A stretch of 23,525 nucleotides of DNA, taken from a virus. The translations under genes were made by a program, and so were the position numbers. The notes beneath the pieces are model-generated. The model had not been told where the DNA came from and made no database searches. It saw only the letters and a program-made list of their open reading frames with translations. This document shows positions 5,680-21,617 of this stretch, piece by piece. The DNA lies in IMG/VR virus record IMGVR_UViG_3300049719_000135, positions 1 through 23,525 of that record, one strand, 5' to 3'. Each line of letters begins with the position of its first letter. Position 1 is the stretch's first letter.

Positions 5680-5949
5680 CTACGCCAAATCGTACACGTT
5701 GTACTTTCCGAATTCGTTCTCACGTTCTTCGACAAACTTCAAATCTTGAGTTGCACACACGTGAACTACATTTCCACGTTCAGTTTTACAAAATGAGTAA
5801 AAACCATCAAGATGACGGAACCATACATATGATGACCCATCACTTGTTGAACAATTTATCATTGAATTCTGTGGTATTTCATATAGCTTCATGGTATTTT
5901 CATCATAACACACAGCGTCAAACGTTACACACGATGTTTGTCTTGTCAT
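5680..5949 (-). CDS. Hypothetical small phage protein
   Basis: An 89-aa protein I do not recognise. It is mixed hydrophilic/aromatic with no membrane segment, and contains SSYVWFRHLDGFYSFC and VVHVCATQDLKFVEE, suggesting a small beta-rich domain with several Cys that do not form an obvious zinc motif. From the ATG at 5949 it overlaps the SLOG gene by 32 bp. An internal ATG at 5892 (MKLYEIPQNS) would remove the overlap and give 70 aa, and neither start has a strong Shine-Dalgarno. The YVWFRHLDGFYSFC pattern suggests a single beta-sheet domain of the kind common in small phage ORFs. Function unknown. Confidence 0.6.
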   Translation of the reverse strand: MTRQTSCVTFDAVCYDENTMKLYEIPQNSMINCSTSDGSSYVWFRHLDGFYSFCKTERGNVVHVCATQDLKFVEERENEFGKYNVYDLA

Positions 5950-6367
5950 TAATTTTTCTAATGATCTCGCGCAGCTCGCTTGGCATTACGTTCATGAAGT
6001 CGACGATTTCAATGTCACCTGCATTTTGACACCTTGTAACCATGTCAAAAGTGCCTTTACTTTCTTCAAGTTTTTTCGGGTACACGAAGTATGCGCACAC
6101 GTTAATTGGACATGATGCGACATGTTCACTGTCCAACATTTTTTGATTTCTCAAAATTCCCGCTGCATAATTGCAGACTATCCAATTCGCAGGATAGTCA
6201 TGCACCGTCATGCCCATCATTTTTGCACACTCGCTCGCAAGTTTATCTGCTCCTCGAGCATATCCCGTTATGACTGTCGTGCACTTGCACTTCGGAAAAT
6301 AGTCAAGAAAGCTGACAATGTCGTCAGAATAACTAAAATCACGACTGCCACAAACAAGAATTTTCAT
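5918..6367 (-). CDS. SLOG-superfamily (DUF2493/YspA-like) protein
   Basis: A 149-aa protein with the SLOG/DUF2493 signature: N-terminal MKILVCGSRDF (1-11) and the nucleotide-binding-type motif VITGYARGADKLASECA (33-49), followed by GMTVHDYPANW. This Rossmann-like family is related to DprA, YpsA and lysine-decarboxylase-like proteins and is common in phages. It is thought to bind nucleotides or nucleotide-derived ligands, but its role in phages is not established. Length is typical of the single-domain form. It lies between a methyltransferase (9 bp upstream) and a small unknown gene (overlapping), all on the minus strand. Confidence 0.82.
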   Translation of the reverse strand: MKILVCGSRDFSYSDDIVSFLDYFPKCKCTTVITGYARGADKLASECAKMMGMTVHDYPANWIVCNYAAGILRNQKMLDSEHVASCPINVCAYFVYPKKLEESKGTFDMVTRCQNAGDIEIVDFMNVMPSELREIIRKINDKTNIVCNV

Positions 6368-6376
6368 GTCATGTCC

Positions 6377-6946
6377 TTACATCAATGCTAAAAATGAAAA
6401 AACACCTATCGTGTCATATATTGAGAATAAATTCAAGTGCAAAAATGATTTAAATCCAATCGTTCTTAGCAAATTTTTCCACTCTTCTTTTGATTTACAA
6501 TTTATGTGTGTAGGATCTTTTTGTGACACTTCTAAGTAGAAACTACTTGAGTTGTACGAACAAGGTATTCTACAAATCAACGCTTTTGTTTTTACGTTGC
6601 AAAATAGTTCTTTTATTTCATCATCACGCATGTGTTCAAAAACGTCGAGCGCCGTCAATAAGTCAATGTCGCCGAAACACTTCACTATTTTGTTTCCTCT
6701 TTTTGTCGCGATGTCAGTCGCGTACTCTGATATGTCATATCCAAAAACGTTTGCATATCCTTGTTTGTTGAAACCTTCAAGCAAGTAGCCAAATGCACAC
6801 CCATAGTCAAATATCTTTGACGAGTTGTCAATTAACTTTATTTTTGTCAATAACTCACACAGCTCACACGAAAGACGATGATATCTATCAGCTCTTTCAG
6901 AGTAGTCAACGTAGTTAATGCTTTTATAATAATTTTCGTCGTACAT
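6377..6946 (-). CDS. Class I SAM-dependent methyltransferase
   Basis: A 189-aa methyltransferase of the Methyltransf_11/12/23 type, counted from the ATG at 6946. Motif I is KIFDYGCAFGYLL (44-56), the acidic post-motif is FGYDIS (68-73), and the motif corresponding to the catalytic-side strand is LLTALDVFEHM. Two in-frame starts lie upstream, at 6967 and at 6988, within the preceding radical SAM gene. The 6946 start leaves a 5-bp gap after that gene's stop at 6952 and is preferred. It lies directly downstream of two coupled radical SAM genes and a glycosyltransferase, so a small-molecule or sugar substrate within one pathway is plausible. N- versus O- versus C-methylation cannot be decided. 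Confidence 0.85.
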   Translation of the reverse strand: MYDENYYKSINYVDYSERADRYHRLSCELCELLTKIKLIDNSSKIFDYGCAFGYLLEGFNKQGYANVFGYDISEYATDIATKRGNKIVKCFGDIDLLTALDVFEHMRDDEIKELFCNVKTKALICRIPCSYNSSSFYLEVSQKDPTHINCKSKEEWKNLLRTIGFKSFLHLNLFSIYDTIGVFSFLALM

Positions 6947-6951
6947 TTTGA

Positions 6952-7680
6952 TCACGGACGTGGACATGACATGCAATGCGGGTGACATTTTCTGCCCACA
7001 GACACCGCAAGTTCGTTTACATATCGTTGGTGTTCTTCACTGTACCACAATTCTTTGACAGAACGTTCATAAATTGTTCCAAGCTTGAAATTTCCTGTCA
7101 AGTCATCGCAACACAGCAACATCTCGCCCTTGTGATTGACTATCATTCGCTTACGTGGAAGTAGACACACATTATTTTTGTAATTTTGTGACAATTTCAC
7201 GACGTCCGCGATTGGACTGAAGTGTGTTATCATCCTGTCATTTCCATGAGAAATTTTCAACGTTGTCTTCTTGAAAAGAGATTGTATCCAACTTGATCGC
7301 TTTGTTAGATCGTCCATGTACAACGTAAATCCAATCAAGTCAACGTTTCCATCAAGAGCTTTTGCGAGACTTTCTGTCAAAAAATCTGCATTTGAACAAA
7401 ACATAACGTATGAAAAGTGATGACGTGCAAGGTGCGCAATGTCTGTTATTCTGTCGTCCAACAATGGTTCGTTGTAATGTGACAAGCAAACGTGATTTCT
7501 AAATCCCATTGAATTTACTTGTGCAAAGACACGTCCAATGTCTTCAAGCGGTAACAAATTTTGTTTAAACCACGATGATGTCAGTTCCTTGTTGGGCGTT
7601 GAATTTCGAATGCACGTTGGACACTTTCGATTGCACATCGAACACGTTTCAATTTCAAATTGTCTAAACATGTCTATCAT
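6952..7680 (-). CDS. Radical SAM/SPASM enzyme, second of a pair
   Basis: A 242-aa radical SAM protein. The cluster motif CxxxCxxC is at C16, C20 and C23 (ETCSMCNRKCPTC). The core contains SHYNEPLLDD, where the glycine-rich second motif would sit, and FCSNADF. The C-terminus has a SPASM-like pattern: NHKGEMLLCCDDLTGNFKLG, then SVKELWYSEEHQRYV, then CHPHCMSCPRP. It is short but contains both parts. SPASM enzymes modify peptides, sugars or cofactors using auxiliary iron-sulfur clusters. The start overlaps the stop of the first radical SAM gene (ATGA at 7677-7680), so the two are coupled. Substrate unknown; no peptide precursor is evident nearby. Confidence 0.88.
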   Translation of the reverse strand: MIDMFRQFEIETCSMCNRKCPTCIRNSTPNKELTSSWFKQNLLPLEDIGRVFAQVNSMGFRNHVCLSHYNEPLLDDRITDIAHLARHHFSYVMFCSNADFLTESLAKALDGNVDLIGFTLYMDDLTKRSSWIQSLFKKTTLKISHGNDRMITHFSPIADVVKLSQNYKNNVCLLPRKRMIVNHKGEMLLCCDDLTGNFKLGTIYERSVKELWYSEEHQRYVNELAVSVGRKCHPHCMSCPRP

Positions 7681-8660
7681 GCGAAATTTTTGTCCGGTAG
7701 TTCAGTTGCGACTGTGTGAAGTAATTTGTTGTTGTTATAGTAATAACAGTGAAAACACTTGTTCACATCAACGTCGTAAGGCTTGCTACCTGCAGCAAAT
7801 TTATTGTTGCAATCTCTCCAAAAGTTGATTACGTTCTCAACGTCACACAACTTCCAATCAGGTTCATACTTGCGGGTCGCTAAGACGAACGATGAGCAGA
7901 TGTACACGCCTGAGTGCGTCCAATACGGTCTTACGAGACCCACGTAGCAGTGATCATGTGGCAAGAAATTTTCATTGATCTCCTTTAAAAACATTTTTCC
8001 ACGCGAATTGTGCTTTTTTATCGTCTCATTCCAATCACTCTTGATTGTCAGTGAGTTATCGTTCAAACAATTTGGCGCCAACCTTACAAACTTTACGTCA
8101 TACGTTGATGCAATTGACGCGATTTTATCAATGATCGCTTCAGTCGTTTTGTCGTTGATGATGTATGATAGTCCAAGCTTGGAGCTTGAAATTTTGCTAA
8201 AATTCACGTTTGCGTTCAGATTAATGTCAAGAATTGACATCGACACCCTGATCCAAGCCAATGCATCTATTGACTGTTGTGACAGATATTTTGTTGGCAC
8301 AACAGAGTTTGTTATGACACCCACGTCGTAGCTCAACTTTTTTGCAAAGTCTATCACATCATTGATGCCGTGATAAAGTAAAGGATTTCCTCCTCCTGTG
8401 ATTTCAAGCGCTTTTGCGCCCAATGTCTTGAAATCAGTCAATCCTTTCTTGATCGTTTCGATGTCAATTGACTTTGACTTGTCTCTATTTTTTACCGAGC
8501 AGTAATTACAGTTTAGGTCACAAGTCTCAGTCGGAGCGAGTTGAACGGTAATCGGCTTGAACTTTTTGTTATTTTGTATTGAATAAAGTACGTCTGTGTG
8601 TTGTAATAGTTTATCACCAAACGTCGAGTACCGTTGTGTTAGTTTTTCATAGTCACTCAT
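7677..8660 (-). CDS. Radical SAM enzyme with Cys-rich C-terminus, first of a pair
   Basis: A 327-aa radical SAM protein from the ATG at 8660, a start supported by GAGG seven bases upstream and by an 8-bp overlap with the upstream glycosyltransferase stop. The cluster motif is C47/C51/C54 (CDLNCNYC). The glycine-rich motif LEITGGGNPLLY (85-96) replaces the more usual GGE pattern. Downstream there are at least seven more Cys residues (around HDHCYVGL, VYICSS, LCDVEN, RDCNN and KCFHCYYY), consistent with a SPASM-like or auxiliary-cluster domain. Together with the following coupled radical SAM gene and methyltransferase it may form one pathway. Confidence 0.88.
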   Translation of the reverse strand: MSDYEKLTQRYSTFGDKLLQHTDVLYSIQNNKKFKPITVQLAPTETCDLNCNYCSVKNRDKSKSIDIETIKKGLTDFKTLGAKALEITGGGNPLLYHGINDVIDFAKKLSYDVGVITNSVVPTKYLSQQSIDALAWIRVSMSILDINLNANVNFSKISSSKLGLSYIINDKTTEAIIDKIASIASTYDVKFVRLAPNCLNDNSLTIKSDWNETIKKHNSRGKMFLKEINENFLPHDHCYVGLVRPYWTHSGVYICSSFVLATRKYEPDWKLCDVENVINFWRDCNNKFAAGSKPYDVDVNKCFHCYYYNNNKLLHTVATELPDKNFA

Positions 8661-9567
8661 TGATGCGCCTCGTGAGTTCTTCAACGATTATTTCATAGTA
8701 CCTACGTTGTTTCAATATTTCAACTGTTCCTGCGATCATTTTGTTTCGAACGTTTGGATCCAATTTCTTTATCCACTCAATTTTTGAGGGCATCTCCTCG
8801 ACATCATCAACGAGACACGCAGTAGGTAATTCATCAATTTTATAGTGTAATGCCTCTGTTTGTCTATTTCTCACCAAAAAACATCCACGAGACAATATTT
8901 CAATTGCTTTTGGCCAAAGTGCATTGTATTCAATGGGTTGTTTGTCAACGATCGTCGGTTCACCCTCAAACTGCACCCACACTCGCAGGTCATCAAGATA
9001 TCGCAAAAATGCGCTGTATGGATTGACAAAATCACGTTTCCATACATCATTTATACCAAGCTGCGTGAGCCTATCAAAATTTCTTTGGCGGCTCTCACGC
9101 CACGAGCCCCTGAACTCGACGTCAAGTTTTCTTTCTTCCCACGGCGTGAACTTGCACGTCTCTTGCGAGACGCCAAGCTGAACACCAAATGCCGGTAATC
9201 CACGTGACTTCACAACGTTTGACCACTCGACTGACGAGAGCATGAAGTTTTTTACATTCAACCTTGATGAAATGACGTCATACGCACCCTTGTAGTGTGA
9301 ACCATCCTCAAATGACACCCATGGGTCATAGTCCTGCACGGTGATTGACGAAGTTCCAATGAGCTGTTTCACACGATCTACGTTAGCATACAACGTGCGA
9401 AGTTTTAATGCGCTTAACACATGATCATAATCATGAAAAATTGATTGTGTGTTATTTAATTCAACGTATGTGCAATCGTGCATTTTTTGCAGCACTGGGT
9501 GCAGGTGTTGTTGATATATTTCACCGTTCACGTATTGAACGCTGTCAATGAGAACAAGCAATTTCAT
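8653..9567 (-). CDS. GT-B-like glycosyltransferase
   Basis: A 304-aa protein from the ATG at 9567 (MKLLVLIDSV); an in-frame TTG at 9585 is less likely. The C-terminal half has the pattern of a group-1-like glycosyltransferase donor domain: EYNALWPKAIEILSRGCF (213-230) with LVRNR after it, similar to the 'E-ILACG' motif of GT4-like enzymes. The usual upstream Gly-rich loop is not obvious, and the match is weaker than for the neighbouring glycosyltransferases. It is the first gene of a coupled set: glycosyltransferase, radical SAM, radical SAM, methyltransferase. A TATAAT hexamer at 9579-9584, about 11 bp upstream of the start, could be a promoter element but has no clear -35 partner. Confidence 0.6.
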   Translation of the reverse strand: MKLLVLIDSVQYVNGEIYQQHLHPVLQKMHDCTYVELNNTQSIFHDYDHVLSALKLRTLYANVDRVKQLIGTSSITVQDYDPWVSFEDGSHYKGAYDVISSRLNVKNFMLSSVEWSNVVKSRGLPAFGVQLGVSQETCKFTPWEERKLDVEFRGSWRESRQRNFDRLTQLGINDVWKRDFVNPYSAFLRYLDDLRVWVQFEGEPTIVDKQPIEYNALWPKAIEILSRGCFLVRNRQTEALHYKIDELPTACLVDDVEEMPSKIEWIKKLDPNVRNKMIAGTVEILKQRRYYEIIVEELTRRINE

Positions 9568-9577
9568 GTAAGAAAAA

Positions 9578-9778
9578 TTATACAATTTGCGATTGATTGT
9601 ACAATTTCTTGAAATCTTTTTGTTGAATGAAATACGTGCATGGAAATTCGTCCAACGTTAGAACGCCCCAACCTGTGACTGACCTCGTCTTGTGTCCTCG
9701 CCACGGGTGATGCCAAATTGTTTTGTAATTTAAACGCAAAATTGTTCCAAATTCAACCGTTTGTTTTACGTCAGTGTG
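9578..9778 (-). pseudogene. 5'-truncated small phage gene remnant
   Basis: The minus-strand frame ending at a TAA at 9578-9580 is open for 66 codons and reads as ordinary protein: VEFGTILRLNYKTIWHHPWR, then GVLTLDEFPCTYFIQQKDF. It has no ATG or GTG. The only candidate start is an internal TTG 14 codons in. The frame continues upstream into the end of the foreign-looking ORF, where it meets a stop at 9812-9814. It therefore looks like a small phage gene whose 5' end has been replaced. Its codons and its ACGT-rich stretches match phage genes, whereas the upstream ORF does not. Function unknown; the Trp/His-rich GTILRL-NYKTIWHHPWRG pattern recalls small phage beta-barrel proteins, but I cannot name the family. 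Confidence 0.6.
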
Positions 9779-10727
9779 ATCTCGTGAACAAGCGCTTGTT
9801 GAAAATCTCGATCACTGATTCCCACTGTGTTCGTTGGCTTCCCGCAGCCTCTTCGATTTCCTTCTTTCGAACCTCAGCAGCTCGGTACTTTGTGAGCAGT
9901 TCCCGGTATGGCTCGATCCTAACTTTTATGTAGGACTTCCAGATTTCCTCCTTGAAACTCTCGATGTTGGAAAGCATAGGAAGAAATTCCTCATGCTCCG
10001 CGAGGTAGGCTTCAAAGTCCCGAACGTTGGCGTTCTTTTTGATCAGTTTCTCGATTTCAGCAAACTTCTTCTTGAGATCCTTATCCTTCGAAATGCCCTC
10101 CTTCTCCTTTGCTATCAAGTCTTCGAGTTCCTTTTCACTGGTGATTTCTAGCCTTGTGCCAGCATTCAAACTTACTGTGTGCTTGGCATCAAAGAAGCCA
10201 TTGTCCGCGAGACTCTTTGCAATGGTGGCGGCGTTGTAGTAGTTGAATGTCCCCTTCTTGAAGTATGTAGAGGCAGCAAGGAGTTCGTTGTACCTCTTGA
10301 TGTACTCCTCAATTGCCAAACGGAAGTCCTTGGTACCGAGAAAAGCCAAGACCTTCTCATCAAAGATCTTGTCATAGCGGATCTCGGAAAATGGGGCATC
10401 TTTCTGCGTGAGGACTTCTGCCTCAATCCGAATCAATGCACGGTAGAACTCTTCGTCACTTCTAGTAAACGTTGACGACACCTCCTTCTCCAAGTCCTTC
10501 TTTGAGCCGGATTGTTCCTTCAATGCCCTCAAGAAGGTTTCTTTGGACTTGTCGATTTCGACCTGAAGTCCCTCGTATTCCTTTCTCAGCTTACTATCGA
10601 CGAGCAGAGTTGAAGTCTTCTCAGTGTGACCAAAGACCTCGTCATAGGGGGCAACAACATGGACGGATTCTTTTACACGAGAGTTCATTGGAACGTGCTT
10701 GTGAAGCGTAGGTTGATATGTTGTCAT
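9771..10727 (-). CDS. Foreign-looking coiled-coil ORF, fragment of an AAA-ATPase-type protein
   Basis: A 318-aa ORF that is mostly charged helix and likely coiled coil: Lys/Glu-rich stretches from 40 to 110 and again from 195 to 310. It has neither a Walker A nor a Walker B motif. From memory of sequences I cannot search here, residues 21 to about 310 resemble the middle region of a large bacterial AAA-family ATPase; the stretch VVAPYDEVFGHTEKTSTLLV and the end WESVIEIFNKRLF fit that picture. The first ~20 residues, MTTYQPTLHKHVPMNSRVKE, look phage-like. Base use differs from its neighbours: many AAG and GAG codons, and the tetramer ACGT occurs 3 times in 957 bp against 12 in the adjacent 915-bp glycosyltransferase (counted by eye). 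The phage gene downstream has lost its start. Whether the ORF is expressed is unknown. Confidence 0.55.
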   Translation of the reverse strand: MTTYQPTLHKHVPMNSRVKESVHVVAPYDEVFGHTEKTSTLLVDSKLRKEYEGLQVEIDKSKETFLRALKEQSGSKKDLEKEVSSTFTRSDEEFYRALIRIEAEVLTQKDAPFSEIRYDKIFDEKVLAFLGTKDFRLAIEEYIKRYNELLAASTYFKKGTFNYYNAATIAKSLADNGFFDAKHTVSLNAGTRLEITSEKELEDLIAKEKEGISKDKDLKKKFAEIEKLIKKNANVRDFEAYLAEHEEFLPMLSNIESFKEEIWKSYIKVRIEPYRELLTKYRAAEVRKKEIEEAAGSQRTQWESVIEIFNKRLFTRSH

Positions 10728-10745
10728 GTGATTATGATATCACAC

Positions 10746-11705
10746 TTACGAACGAATTACACTCTCTAACAATTCAACGTATTTCTTTGCAACGTTCTTT
10801 ATCGACACGTCTGCATGTGAACCCATGTTACACATTGCATCAAAAAGTGGCATTTGCACGATCTGCTTGACGTCAATTATGGGTGGTGAATCCCAATCAA
10901 AGTGTCCAGGCTCAAGTTCGCACTCTTCTTTTATGACTATTCCAAAGTCTTTTACAATCTCTTTTGTTCCACCGCTGCTCGCAACGACGCACGGCGTCTC
11001 TTGTGAAAGAGCGTGCGTAATTACGTTTGGGCAGTGATCTGCAAACGATAAATGCAAAAACGCGGTACTCATTGCATACACTTCTGCACACACGTCGAGT
11101 GGTTGACACCCGGCATAAAAAATTCCTGTGTCTGCACGAAGCAAGTCATAATTTTGTTGGTTATCAATCGTTCCAAGAACTATCAAGCAACTCTTTTTGT
11201 CAGGTGACAAGCTTCGCAGGTGCTTGAACAGTTCAACATTCGTTGCAAGCCTTTTTTGTGGGTGCCACATTGCCGAACAAGAATACACAAAGTCAAACTC
11301 TTGCCTTAACTTTTCAAGTCCTGTGAACTTGTGTTCACGTATTGGCACAAGGTGCGTGCCATTGTGAATGACATCACACGATTTAGGATATCCAAATAAC
11401 TTCGTGACAACACTCTTGTCGAACTCGCTCTGAAACACGACTGCGTCCGCAATATCGTACGTTTGTTTTATACTCCTGTTTTTTTGTTCAAAATCTTTTT
11501 GTGACGACCATATGCCATCAAGACGATGCACAACTTTATCACACAGCTTTTCTCCCGTTCGCTCAATGAACACCAAGCTGACATCTGCATTGTTGTCAAA
11601 GACGACTTCGTGTCCCATCTCAAAGAGCGCCTTTACGAGACAAGCACCGAAACAATTTGGACCGCTCGAGCTCGACAGATTAACGTTGTTCAGCTGAATT
11701 CGCAT
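10746..11705 (-). CDS. GT4-like glycosyltransferase
   Basis: A 319-aa GT-B glycosyltransferase from the ATG at 11705, which is preceded by GGAG five bases upstream; a GTG at 11711 is the alternative. The first domain begins with a Gly-containing SSSSGPNCFGACLVKALFEM segment (11-30), as in GT4 enzymes, then FQSEFDKSVV (91-100) and HNGTHLVPI. The second domain has VYSCSAMWHPQKRL (140-153) and the donor motif HCPNVITHALSQETPCVV (224-241) with GGTKEIV. The usual E of the E(x7)E motif is replaced by N/T-H around 'NVITHALS', which may alter catalysis. It starts 26 bp inside the preceding small gene and ends just before the foreign ORF. Confidence 0.82.
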   Translation of the reverse strand: MRIQLNNVNLSSSSGPNCFGACLVKALFEMGHEVVFDNNADVSLVFIERTGEKLCDKVVHRLDGIWSSQKDFEQKNRSIKQTYDIADAVVFQSEFDKSVVTKLFGYPKSCDVIHNGTHLVPIREHKFTGLEKLRQEFDFVYSCSAMWHPQKRLATNVELFKHLRSLSPDKKSCLIVLGTIDNQQNYDLLRADTGIFYAGCQPLDVCAEVYAMSTAFLHLSFADHCPNVITHALSQETPCVVASSGGTKEIVKDFGIVIKEECELEPGHFDWDSPPIIDVKQIVQMPLFDAMCNMGSHADVSIKNVAKKYVELLESVIRS

Positions 11706-11949
11706 CTTCACTCCACGTCTTATAAAGTTTTCTCAACACGTCAAGACCATTTTCGTTAATTGACAATTGCGAAGACAATGCATATGTCAGCGCGTCTTTT
11801 ACAGGACCTTGCTCATATCTACGCGTCAAATTTTTCTTTGCGATGCGATGTGCCGCATCACCGTCTCGTTCGCATCCAGGTTTTCTCATACAAACAGACG
11901 TCAATGCGTGAAGTTCATGTATAAAATCAGTAAATTCTTTGTCTGTCAT
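11680..11949 (-). CDS. Hypothetical small helical protein
   Basis: An 89-aa protein that I do not recognise. It is hydrophilic and probably all helical: MTDKEFTDFIHELHALTSVC, then CERDGDAAHRIAKKNLTRRY, then LSINENGLDVLRKLYKTWSE. No signal peptide, membrane segment or metal motif is visible, although two Cys occur early. The ATG at 11949 is the first in frame and has no strong Shine-Dalgarno, while its 3' end overlaps the glycosyltransferase start by 26 bp, supporting co-translation. It lies 30 bp downstream of the endolysin. Small genes next to lysis genes are often lysis regulators or unrelated fillers, but nothing in this sequence decides it. Confidence 0.6.
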   Translation of the reverse strand: MTDKEFTDFIHELHALTSVCMRKPGCERDGDAAHRIAKKNLTRRYEQGPVKDALTYALSSQLSINENGLDVLRKLYKTWSEDANSAEQR

Positions 11950-19873: not shown

Positions 19874-20655
19874 AATAACTCCTTTTGCACGCTCACGTAA
19901 TCAATGTTCAAGTCTTCAAGCTTCTTTTTGTCGTAGATCACAAGCTTCATCGAAGGATTTGAGTTCCTGATGTGATCGAGCTTGTCACGTTGTTCCCAAT
20001 TCCAAAACGCGCCCTTGACGTCGACGTGTTCGTTAGTCAACGGGAGAAAGAAGTCTGGATAGTACGAGCGAGTTGCACCGTCAGGAGTTGTGTAGGGAAA
20101 CCTACCTCGGTGAGCAACGTAGTCGACGTGATTTGCATCAAAGTAACGAGCGACTGCGACTTCCCAGGTGCCTTGAAACTTGACGATCTCGCCAGAGGGC
20201 TTGACATGGGCGTACCACTTGCACTTTCCGACGGGCACGTTGTCGTACTTGCCGTCAGCCCACGCTTGACGCGTACATTCCGCAATCATCTCTTTAAATT
20301 CAGGATCATTTGCAAACTTTGCTTTACGAGTTTTTGAAGCCTTTGCGCGCGAGGCAGGCTTTTTCATTGGATTGTCATTTAGCATTTTTTCACGAACTGC
20401 TTTTGCTTGTGCTAAATGCGCGCATTCTTCAGAACATGTACAATGCCAATCTGCAAATTTTGTTGTAAAAGTTTTTACGCATCCATGACATACCTTAACA
20501 ACATCAGGTTGTGTAGCCTTGAATGCATCTCTTTCAAGTTTTTTCTGATGTGCAGCTTCTGCAGCTTTATGAGAAGCATATAAATGAGAACAATGCGTTG
20601 AACAACATTTTCGTCCAGGGGCAACTTGATTTTCGCACTCAAGACACATTGTCAT
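19870..20655 (-). CDS. Zinc-finger plus PD-(D/E)XK homing-type nuclease
   Basis: A 261-aa protein. The N-terminal third has two Cys-rich metal-binding-like clusters: C4, C7, C17, C18, C22 and C56, C59, C72, C74, C78. A basic region DNPMKKPASRAKASKTRKAK (94-113) resembles NUMOD3-type DNA-binding repeats of homing endonucleases. The C-terminal half fits a PD-(D/E)XK fold: E165 in FQGTWEVAVARYFD, D201 in SYYPDFFLP, and D212-x-K214 in HVDVKG, as in phage-type nucleases and VSR/I-Ssp6803I-like enzymes. It likely acts as a free-standing homing or defence-related nuclease. The start overlaps the upstream dehydrogenase stop (ATGA, 20652-20655). Confidence 0.7.
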   Translation of the reverse strand: MTMCLECENQVAPGRKCCSTHCSHLYASHKAAEAAHQKKLERDAFKATQPDVVKVCHGCVKTFTTKFADWHCTCSEECAHLAQAKAVREKMLNDNPMKKPASRAKASKTRKAKFANDPEFKEMIAECTRQAWADGKYDNVPVGKCKWYAHVKPSGEIVKFQGTWEVAVARYFDANHVDYVAHRGRFPYTTPDGATRSYYPDFFLPLTNEHVDVKGAFWNWEQRDKLDHIRNSNPSMKLVIYDKKKLEDLNIDYVSVQKELL

Positions 20656-21617
20656 TTTTTCTCACTAACGGCGCGCCCGACCATTTTTTCCCAATCACGA
20701 CCGGGCCTCACTTCTACGTTTTTTGTAGTTGTTGCTTGTAACATCGTAGGAATTACACCAAGTTCCTTTGCTCGATATGTTAACGCATTCACGTCTTTTG
20801 GAAAGCAACTCAAACTATAACCTCGCAAAGGATTTCCTTCACTATCCTTCTCAAAAGAAGGAACCGACCAATGACTATTACCTGCTCGTTTATCGAGTTT
20901 AACACATTCCAATGTTCTATCATAATCAACATCGCACCCATTTTCTGCTAACTTTTCGCAAATTTGATAAATTTCATTTGCGAATGAAACTTTCATAGCA
21001 AGAAAACAATTTATGATATATTTTGTTAGTTCGGCATTTGTGCTGCTTGTCTTCACAATTTTTACATTAGGAAAAGCTTGTTGAAGAAGTTGTTTTACTT
21101 TATTCACACTGTCTTTTGGCCCACCTAAGATTATGCGATCCTGATTTCGCATATCTTCAAGAGCAGTTGCTTCTCGAAGAAATTCGGGGTTAAATGTCAC
21201 GCGTAGTAATGTATTTTCGTATTGTTTGTTCCAGCGTTCAATTGATCCGGGTGGTACGGTACTTTTTACGACTGCGATCAAATCGACATTTGTATTTGCA
21301 AGCTCGTTTAACACGCCTTCAACAATTGAAAGATCAGCTTTTCCGCTACTTTCCATTGGCGTGGGCAAACACACAAACACAATTCCCGAAAACCCTTCCT
21401 TCGCTTCACAACATTCAACGAGTTCTCGAACGTTCTCGACAGGACGAGTTGCTCTGCCTCTTTCAAAGCAAGGAAAAACTGTTGCCTTTTCAGCGCCCAC
21501 AGCACATTTACCTGCCTTATCGTAATTGTAAACAGTCAGTCCACGCTCACTCAACACTTGAGCAAGTGATCCGCCAACAAATCCTGCACCAACGACGCAA
21601 CATGAAATCTTTGTCAT
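20652..21617 (-). CDS. UDP-glucose/GDP-mannose dehydrogenase-like enzyme, C-terminally short
   Basis: A 321-aa nucleotide-sugar dehydrogenase. The NAD-binding loop is VGAGFVGGSLA (9-19); VVKSTVPPGS (116-125), FNPEFLREATA (142-152) with E145, and NCFLAMKVSFANEI (203-216) with K209 and N214 are all typical of the UGD family. The catalytic Cys is C271 in GYSLSCFPKDVNAL. The family normally has a third, UDP-binding C-terminal domain of about 100 residues or more after the Cys; here only about 50 residues follow, so that domain appears reduced or missing. It would make UDP-glucuronate-type sugar for the glycosyltransferases nearby. Several viral homologues are short, so it may still be active. Confidence 0.88.
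   Translation of the reverse strand: MTKISCCVVGAGFVGGSLAQVLSERGLTVYNYDKAGKCAVGAEKATVFPCFERGRATRPVENVRELVECCEAKEGFSGIVFVCLPTPMESSGKADLSIVEGVLNELANTNVDLIAVVKSTVPPGSIERWNKQYENTLLRVTFNPEFLREATALEDMRNQDRIILGGPKDSVNKVKQLLQQAFPNVKIVKTSSTNAELTKYIINCFLAMKVSFANEIYQICEKLAENGCDVDYDRTLECVKLDKRAGNSHWSVPSFEKDSEGNPLRGYSLSCFPKDVNALTYRAKELGVIPTMLQATTTKNVEVRPGRDWEKMVGRAVSEKK

Follow-up and report, generated by a model that had tools for sequence, protein, structure and literature searches.

The stretch of DNA analysed here, which we call the window, comprises 23,525 nucleotides, positions 1 to 23,525, of the IMG/VR virus record IMGVR_UViG_3300049719_000135. Its minus strand carries an open reading frame (ORF) of 318 amino acids (aa) between a conserved glycosyltransferase gene and the start-less end of a small phage gene. 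The features of this region, compared with two related phages, L026 (IMGVR_UViG_3300028563_000016) and L029, are listed below from high to low coordinates.

10746 to 11711, minus strand: conserved glycosyltransferase gene forming the upstream flank, 80 to 82% aa identity to L026 and L029
10729 to 10750, minus strand: left arm of an imperfect inverted repeat (17/22) that flanks the foreign DNA
9771 to 10727, minus strand: chimeric ORF, 318 aa, consisting of 18 residues from the leader, a 296-residue ATPase arm of the PDC-S46 family and a 4-residue tail
10676 to 10727, minus strand: leader of about 53 bp with no match in phages, IMG/VR patterns or relatives, supplying the start codon and the first 17 or 18 residues
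9791 to 10675, minus strand: captured bacterial segment of about 885 bp encoding a RecF/SMC-like ATPase helical arm, assigned by 57 to 78% aa identity, junction alignment and codon use
9578 to 9790, minus strand: 3' remnant of the small phage gene, corresponding to the C-terminal 70 or so codons of a 231-aa gene of L026, with no in-frame ATG or GTG start
9769 to 9790, minus strand: right arm of the inverted repeat, lying in native coding sequence of the remnant that is conserved in L026
8653 to 9585, minus strand: downstream cargo gene, 310 aa, with no Pfam or PHROG match and no counterpart found in the records of L026 and L029

We found that ORF residues 19 to 314 or 315 were 57 to 78% identical to the middle (about residues 79 to 375) of bacterial RecF/SMC/Rad50-type ATPases of about 720 aa, and that the fragment aligned end to end with positions 77 to 370 of the 719-position PADLOC profile PDC-S46 (PDLC05023; E value, 9e-90). 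Among the close relatives, the match began at ORF residue 18 to 22 and ended at 313 to 315. In a phylogenetic tree, the fragment fell inside the bacterial clade with a normal root-to-tip length. The E value, the identity and the nesting within the bacterial tree show that the arm region shares ancestry with the PDC-S46 members. An earlier note on this DNA had proposed a mid-region fragment of a host-like ATPase and about 0.9 kb of foreign DNA, and both proposals agree with a bacterial homology that spans about 885 bp. Searches of the ORF against Pfam gave no match, and a sequence search of solved structures gave nothing useful. Weak NCBIfam matches to aminotransferases and GrpE were rejected as noise.

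The captured segment sits between the Walker A and signature motifs of the family gene. In the alignment, it opens just ahead of the strand preceding the arm and closes before the residues VPF, so that all three motifs fall outside it: Walker A with its loop APNGxMKSS, the signature LSTGE and Walker B with VDDIADSFDY. The earlier note had likewise read the ORF as lacking Walker motifs. Since the fragment corresponds to profile positions 77 to 370, Walker A upstream and the signature and Walker B downstream are absent. Unlike the PDC-S46 members, the ORF is located in a phage and lacks the N-terminal 78 or so residues with Walker A and the C-terminal 345 or so residues with the signature, Walker B and the C-terminal domain. 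It matches neither the full length of the profile nor the set of three motifs that marks the RecF/SMC/Rad50 ABC ATPases.

The structure predicted for a full-length bacterial homolog (L007, 722 aa, mean pLDDT 76) begins with strands at the N terminus, which are followed by a long insertion of helices (about residues 86 to 377) and then by the remaining ATPase head. On this predicted structure, the captured piece (residues 79 to 375) is almost exactly the helical arm: one end lies within 7 residues of the predicted limit and the other about 2 residues from it. Both ends would fall within 7 residues of the limits with a probability of 0.0008 for random ends and 0.023 for a sliding piece of fixed length; the coincidence was noticed post hoc, and its weight is moderate. 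The L007 model resembles the heads of RecF, SMC and Rad50 and the retron and Septu PtuA proteins (Z score of 15.5 to RecF 5z67 and 13.0 to the retron Ec83 PtuA 9e91). While this likeness belongs to the model of the full-length bacterial homolog, the phage ORF has the inserted helical arm alone, without the nucleotide-binding head. A model of the fragment (mean pLDDT 71) gave no significant Foldseek match in the PDB or BFVD.

Bacterial matches to the ORF came from 25 plasmid records, from 20 genome loci that reach 78% identity, and from further genomes. Apart from copies cut short or broken, these homologs are full length, mostly 720 to 777 aa, are scattered across phyla and have E values below 1e-280 against the PDC-S46 profile. 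Scans of one order and two phyla gave no donor closer than 78% identity. PDC-S46 is listed in PADLOC as a candidate single-gene phage defence family. In four loci, the host copies adjoin type III, type I or type IIG restriction genes. A literature search on anti-phage activity returned no paper that mentions the family.

The gene that received the fragment can be recognised from its 3' end. The start-less frame of 65 aa at 9578 to 9775 on the minus strand, pointed out in the earlier note, matches the C-terminal part of a 231-aa gene that is intact in the syntenic phage L026 (L026:4500-5195), with 88% identity over 65 codons and 90% over the first 62. In L026, this gene directly follows the same glycosyltransferase gene. 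The segment is absent from L026, so the comparison with related phages that the note had proposed was borne out. Homology to L026 resumes at about position 9790, and host homology runs from about 10675 to 9791; the junctions are placed to within about 3 nt. Only a few bases are shared at each junction. On crossing into the remnant, the ORF is out of frame with it and ends four residues on. The first 161 or so codons of the small gene are absent from the whole window, and the two halves of the gene therefore do not flank the insert: the event was a replacement rather than a clean insertion. Thus, the earlier proposal that foreign DNA had entered a small phage gene and left its 3' part behind stands for the remnant, but not for the insertion.

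The first 19 or so residues of the ORF, which had been thought to look phage-like, differ from the N terminus of the small gene, and no match to them was found among the host ATPases or the phage relatives. Searches of IMG/VR with degenerate DNA patterns gave chance matches only, with no open frame, and tblastn searches of 50,697 phages, the L026 record and other loci gave nothing useful. No Shine-Dalgarno-like motif was found upstream of the ORF, as with many genes of the window.

We compared the region between the conserved glycosyltransferase gene and the conserved gene at 5918 to 6367 in the three phages. In the window, this slot contains the arm ORF, the remnant, the 310-aa gene, two radical SAM genes and a methyltransferase gene; in L026, it holds the small gene in intact form together with ORFs of 77 and 581 aa. 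In L029, the first 55 or so codons of the small gene are fused to the 3' part of the homolog of the gene at 5918 to 6367 (L029:4983-5343), which is an independent deletion in the same small gene. Since L029 broke the same gene in a different way, the slot is a hypervariable and rearrangement-prone site for cargo genes. The radical SAM and methyltransferase genes of the window lie at 6377 to 8684, with several glycosyltransferase genes around the slot.

Exactly outside the foreign DNA lies the imperfect 22-nt inverted repeat (17/22), a similarity that random flank pairs reach with a frequency of about 0.00025 to 0.001. We did not adopt a mobile element with terminal inverted repeats as the principal explanation, since in L026 the right arm forms part of native coding sequence. 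The corresponding L026 sequence is less similar to the right arm than the left arm is.

The base composition of the ORF differs from that of its surroundings, as the earlier note had judged by eye. Exact counts gave 3 ACGT sites in the 318-aa ORF and 12 in the 933-bp gene at 8653 to 9585. The ACGT count alone is weak evidence, because the native gene at 20652 to 21617 likewise has 3. The ACGT density is 10.6 per kb window-wide against about 3.6 expected, and the ORF is at expectation. ACGT is enriched about threefold in the window, L026 and L029 (9.7 to 10.6 per kb) and is below expectation in donor-like bacterial loci. The codon fit of the ORF to the phage (-1.226) is the lowest of all, the 33 other genes that were scored ranging from -1.202 to -0.986; its GC3 is 0.61 compared with a mean of 0.43. 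The segment has retained a composition foreign to the phage.

Synonymous sites are saturated between the fragment and all bacterial homologs (dN to the nearest, 0.137), which indicates that the donor is not among the genomes sampled. Twelve other sequences are invariant at 109 positions; the fragment departs from them at 2 of these, one of which is at the junction, and its deviations at conserved positions are as few as in the bacterial genes themselves. The remnant shows no decay relative to L026 (dS 0.80, dN 0.068). If a neutral fragment had been resident since the divergence from L026, many of its conserved positions should by now have been lost. The few deviations and the undecayed remnant suggest that the capture is recent, that the protein is constrained or, less likely, that the contig is chimeric.

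Taken together, these results are best explained by a recent illegitimate recombination in the hypervariable cargo slot of an uncultured tailed phage, by which about 885 bp of a PDC-S46-type ATPase gene was captured; we give this reading a probability of about 0.72. A single event would have brought in the bacterial segment in place of the first 161 or so codons of the small phage gene and set the complete helical arm, which lacks the ATP-binding motifs, in frame with a start codon. Mosaicism through illegitimate recombination is a known pattern in phages, and the present case shares with it the pieces joined with little common sequence, the disrupted small gene and the variable cargo slot. 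It differs in what was captured: not a random piece or a whole gene, but a single near-complete domain of a candidate defence gene. We infer that the molecule is real rather than chimeric, and that the capture is recent. In its present state, the ORF is most likely newly arisen and without an established role. If it does act, it would most likely do so through the arm, by pairing with the host ATPase or by competing for its partners. Several points count against this reading: a single record carries the junctions, the searches gave no source for the leader, a cut that so closely matches the arm boundaries would not be predicted for plain debris, and the inverted repeat is unexplained by simple end joining.

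On the other hand, the arm-only protein may be expressed and act as a dominant-negative decoy, as the earlier note had speculated, poisoning the way in which the full-length PDC-S46 ATPase assembles or binds its partners, so that the phage escapes the candidate defence. The ORF keeps the arm, a putative interaction module, and loses the head, and in SMC-like ATPases a headless arm could interfere with the complete protein. This makes a decoy plausible, given also that the cut is domain-exact and that the family is a defence candidate found beside restriction genes. The segment of 296 codons is intact and in frame with a start, and its conserved positions have been kept. However, an in-frame state on the coding strand arises by luck with a probability of about 1 in 6, conservation is explained equally well by recency, codon use is not adapted to the phage and no relative carries the arm ORF. 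No paper found shows defence activity for the family, and the arm, modelled in the fragment with a mean pLDDT of 71, is only a putative dimer interface. Since luck could account for the frame, the decoy is not established and appears doubtful; a non-functional or not yet selected ORF ranks above it. Literature searches for dominant-negative anti-defence and for captured host fragments turned up no paper. The fuller version of this idea, that domain theft has let the phage turn a bacterial defence ATPase against itself and that the stand-alone arm is a dominant-negative inhibitor caught early in counter-defence, seems unlikely. At so early a stage, the composition would still be donor-like and the recipient gene would still bear its scar.

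An assembly or library chimera, in which bacterial reads were joined into a phage contig, is improbable. Zero time since capture would fit a fragment that is un-ameliorated and almost unchanged at conserved positions, and the junctions are carried by one record only. But such an artefact requires two chimeric junctions 885 bp apart, each with few shared bases, and a further piece of 53 bp from a third origin; phage sequence lies on either side of the whole, and part of a phage gene is deleted as well. Finally, it is highly improbable that the ORF is an established phage gene, vertically inherited in unsampled relatives and similar to bacterial genes through an old exchange: the saturation of synonymous sites, with no close donor known, would agree with this, but peptide patterns gave no viral relative of the whole ORF in IMG/VR, the one long homolog in an unannotated phage record (an 817-codon frame) is at 33%, the composition is not phage-like and both L026 and L029 lack the arm ORF.

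Phages carry inhibitors of defence systems, and to our knowledge the first emergence of a new one is rarely seen. If functional, a fresh, domain-exact piece of a candidate defence ATPase beside a broken recipient gene would be a snapshot of an inhibitor's first step. Should it be debris, it still clearly exemplifies the recent entry of part of a bacterial gene into the cargo slot of a phage. In either case, PDC-S46 is singled out as a gene family worth testing. The PDC-S46 genes repeatedly lie near a gene for an SbcD-like phosphoesterase, some also near an SbcC-like AAA gene (L007:6305-7168, L009:6031-8888, L011:6564-7793, L017:6042-8891 and L004:7992-9872), which suggests a shared system larger than a single PDC-S46 gene.
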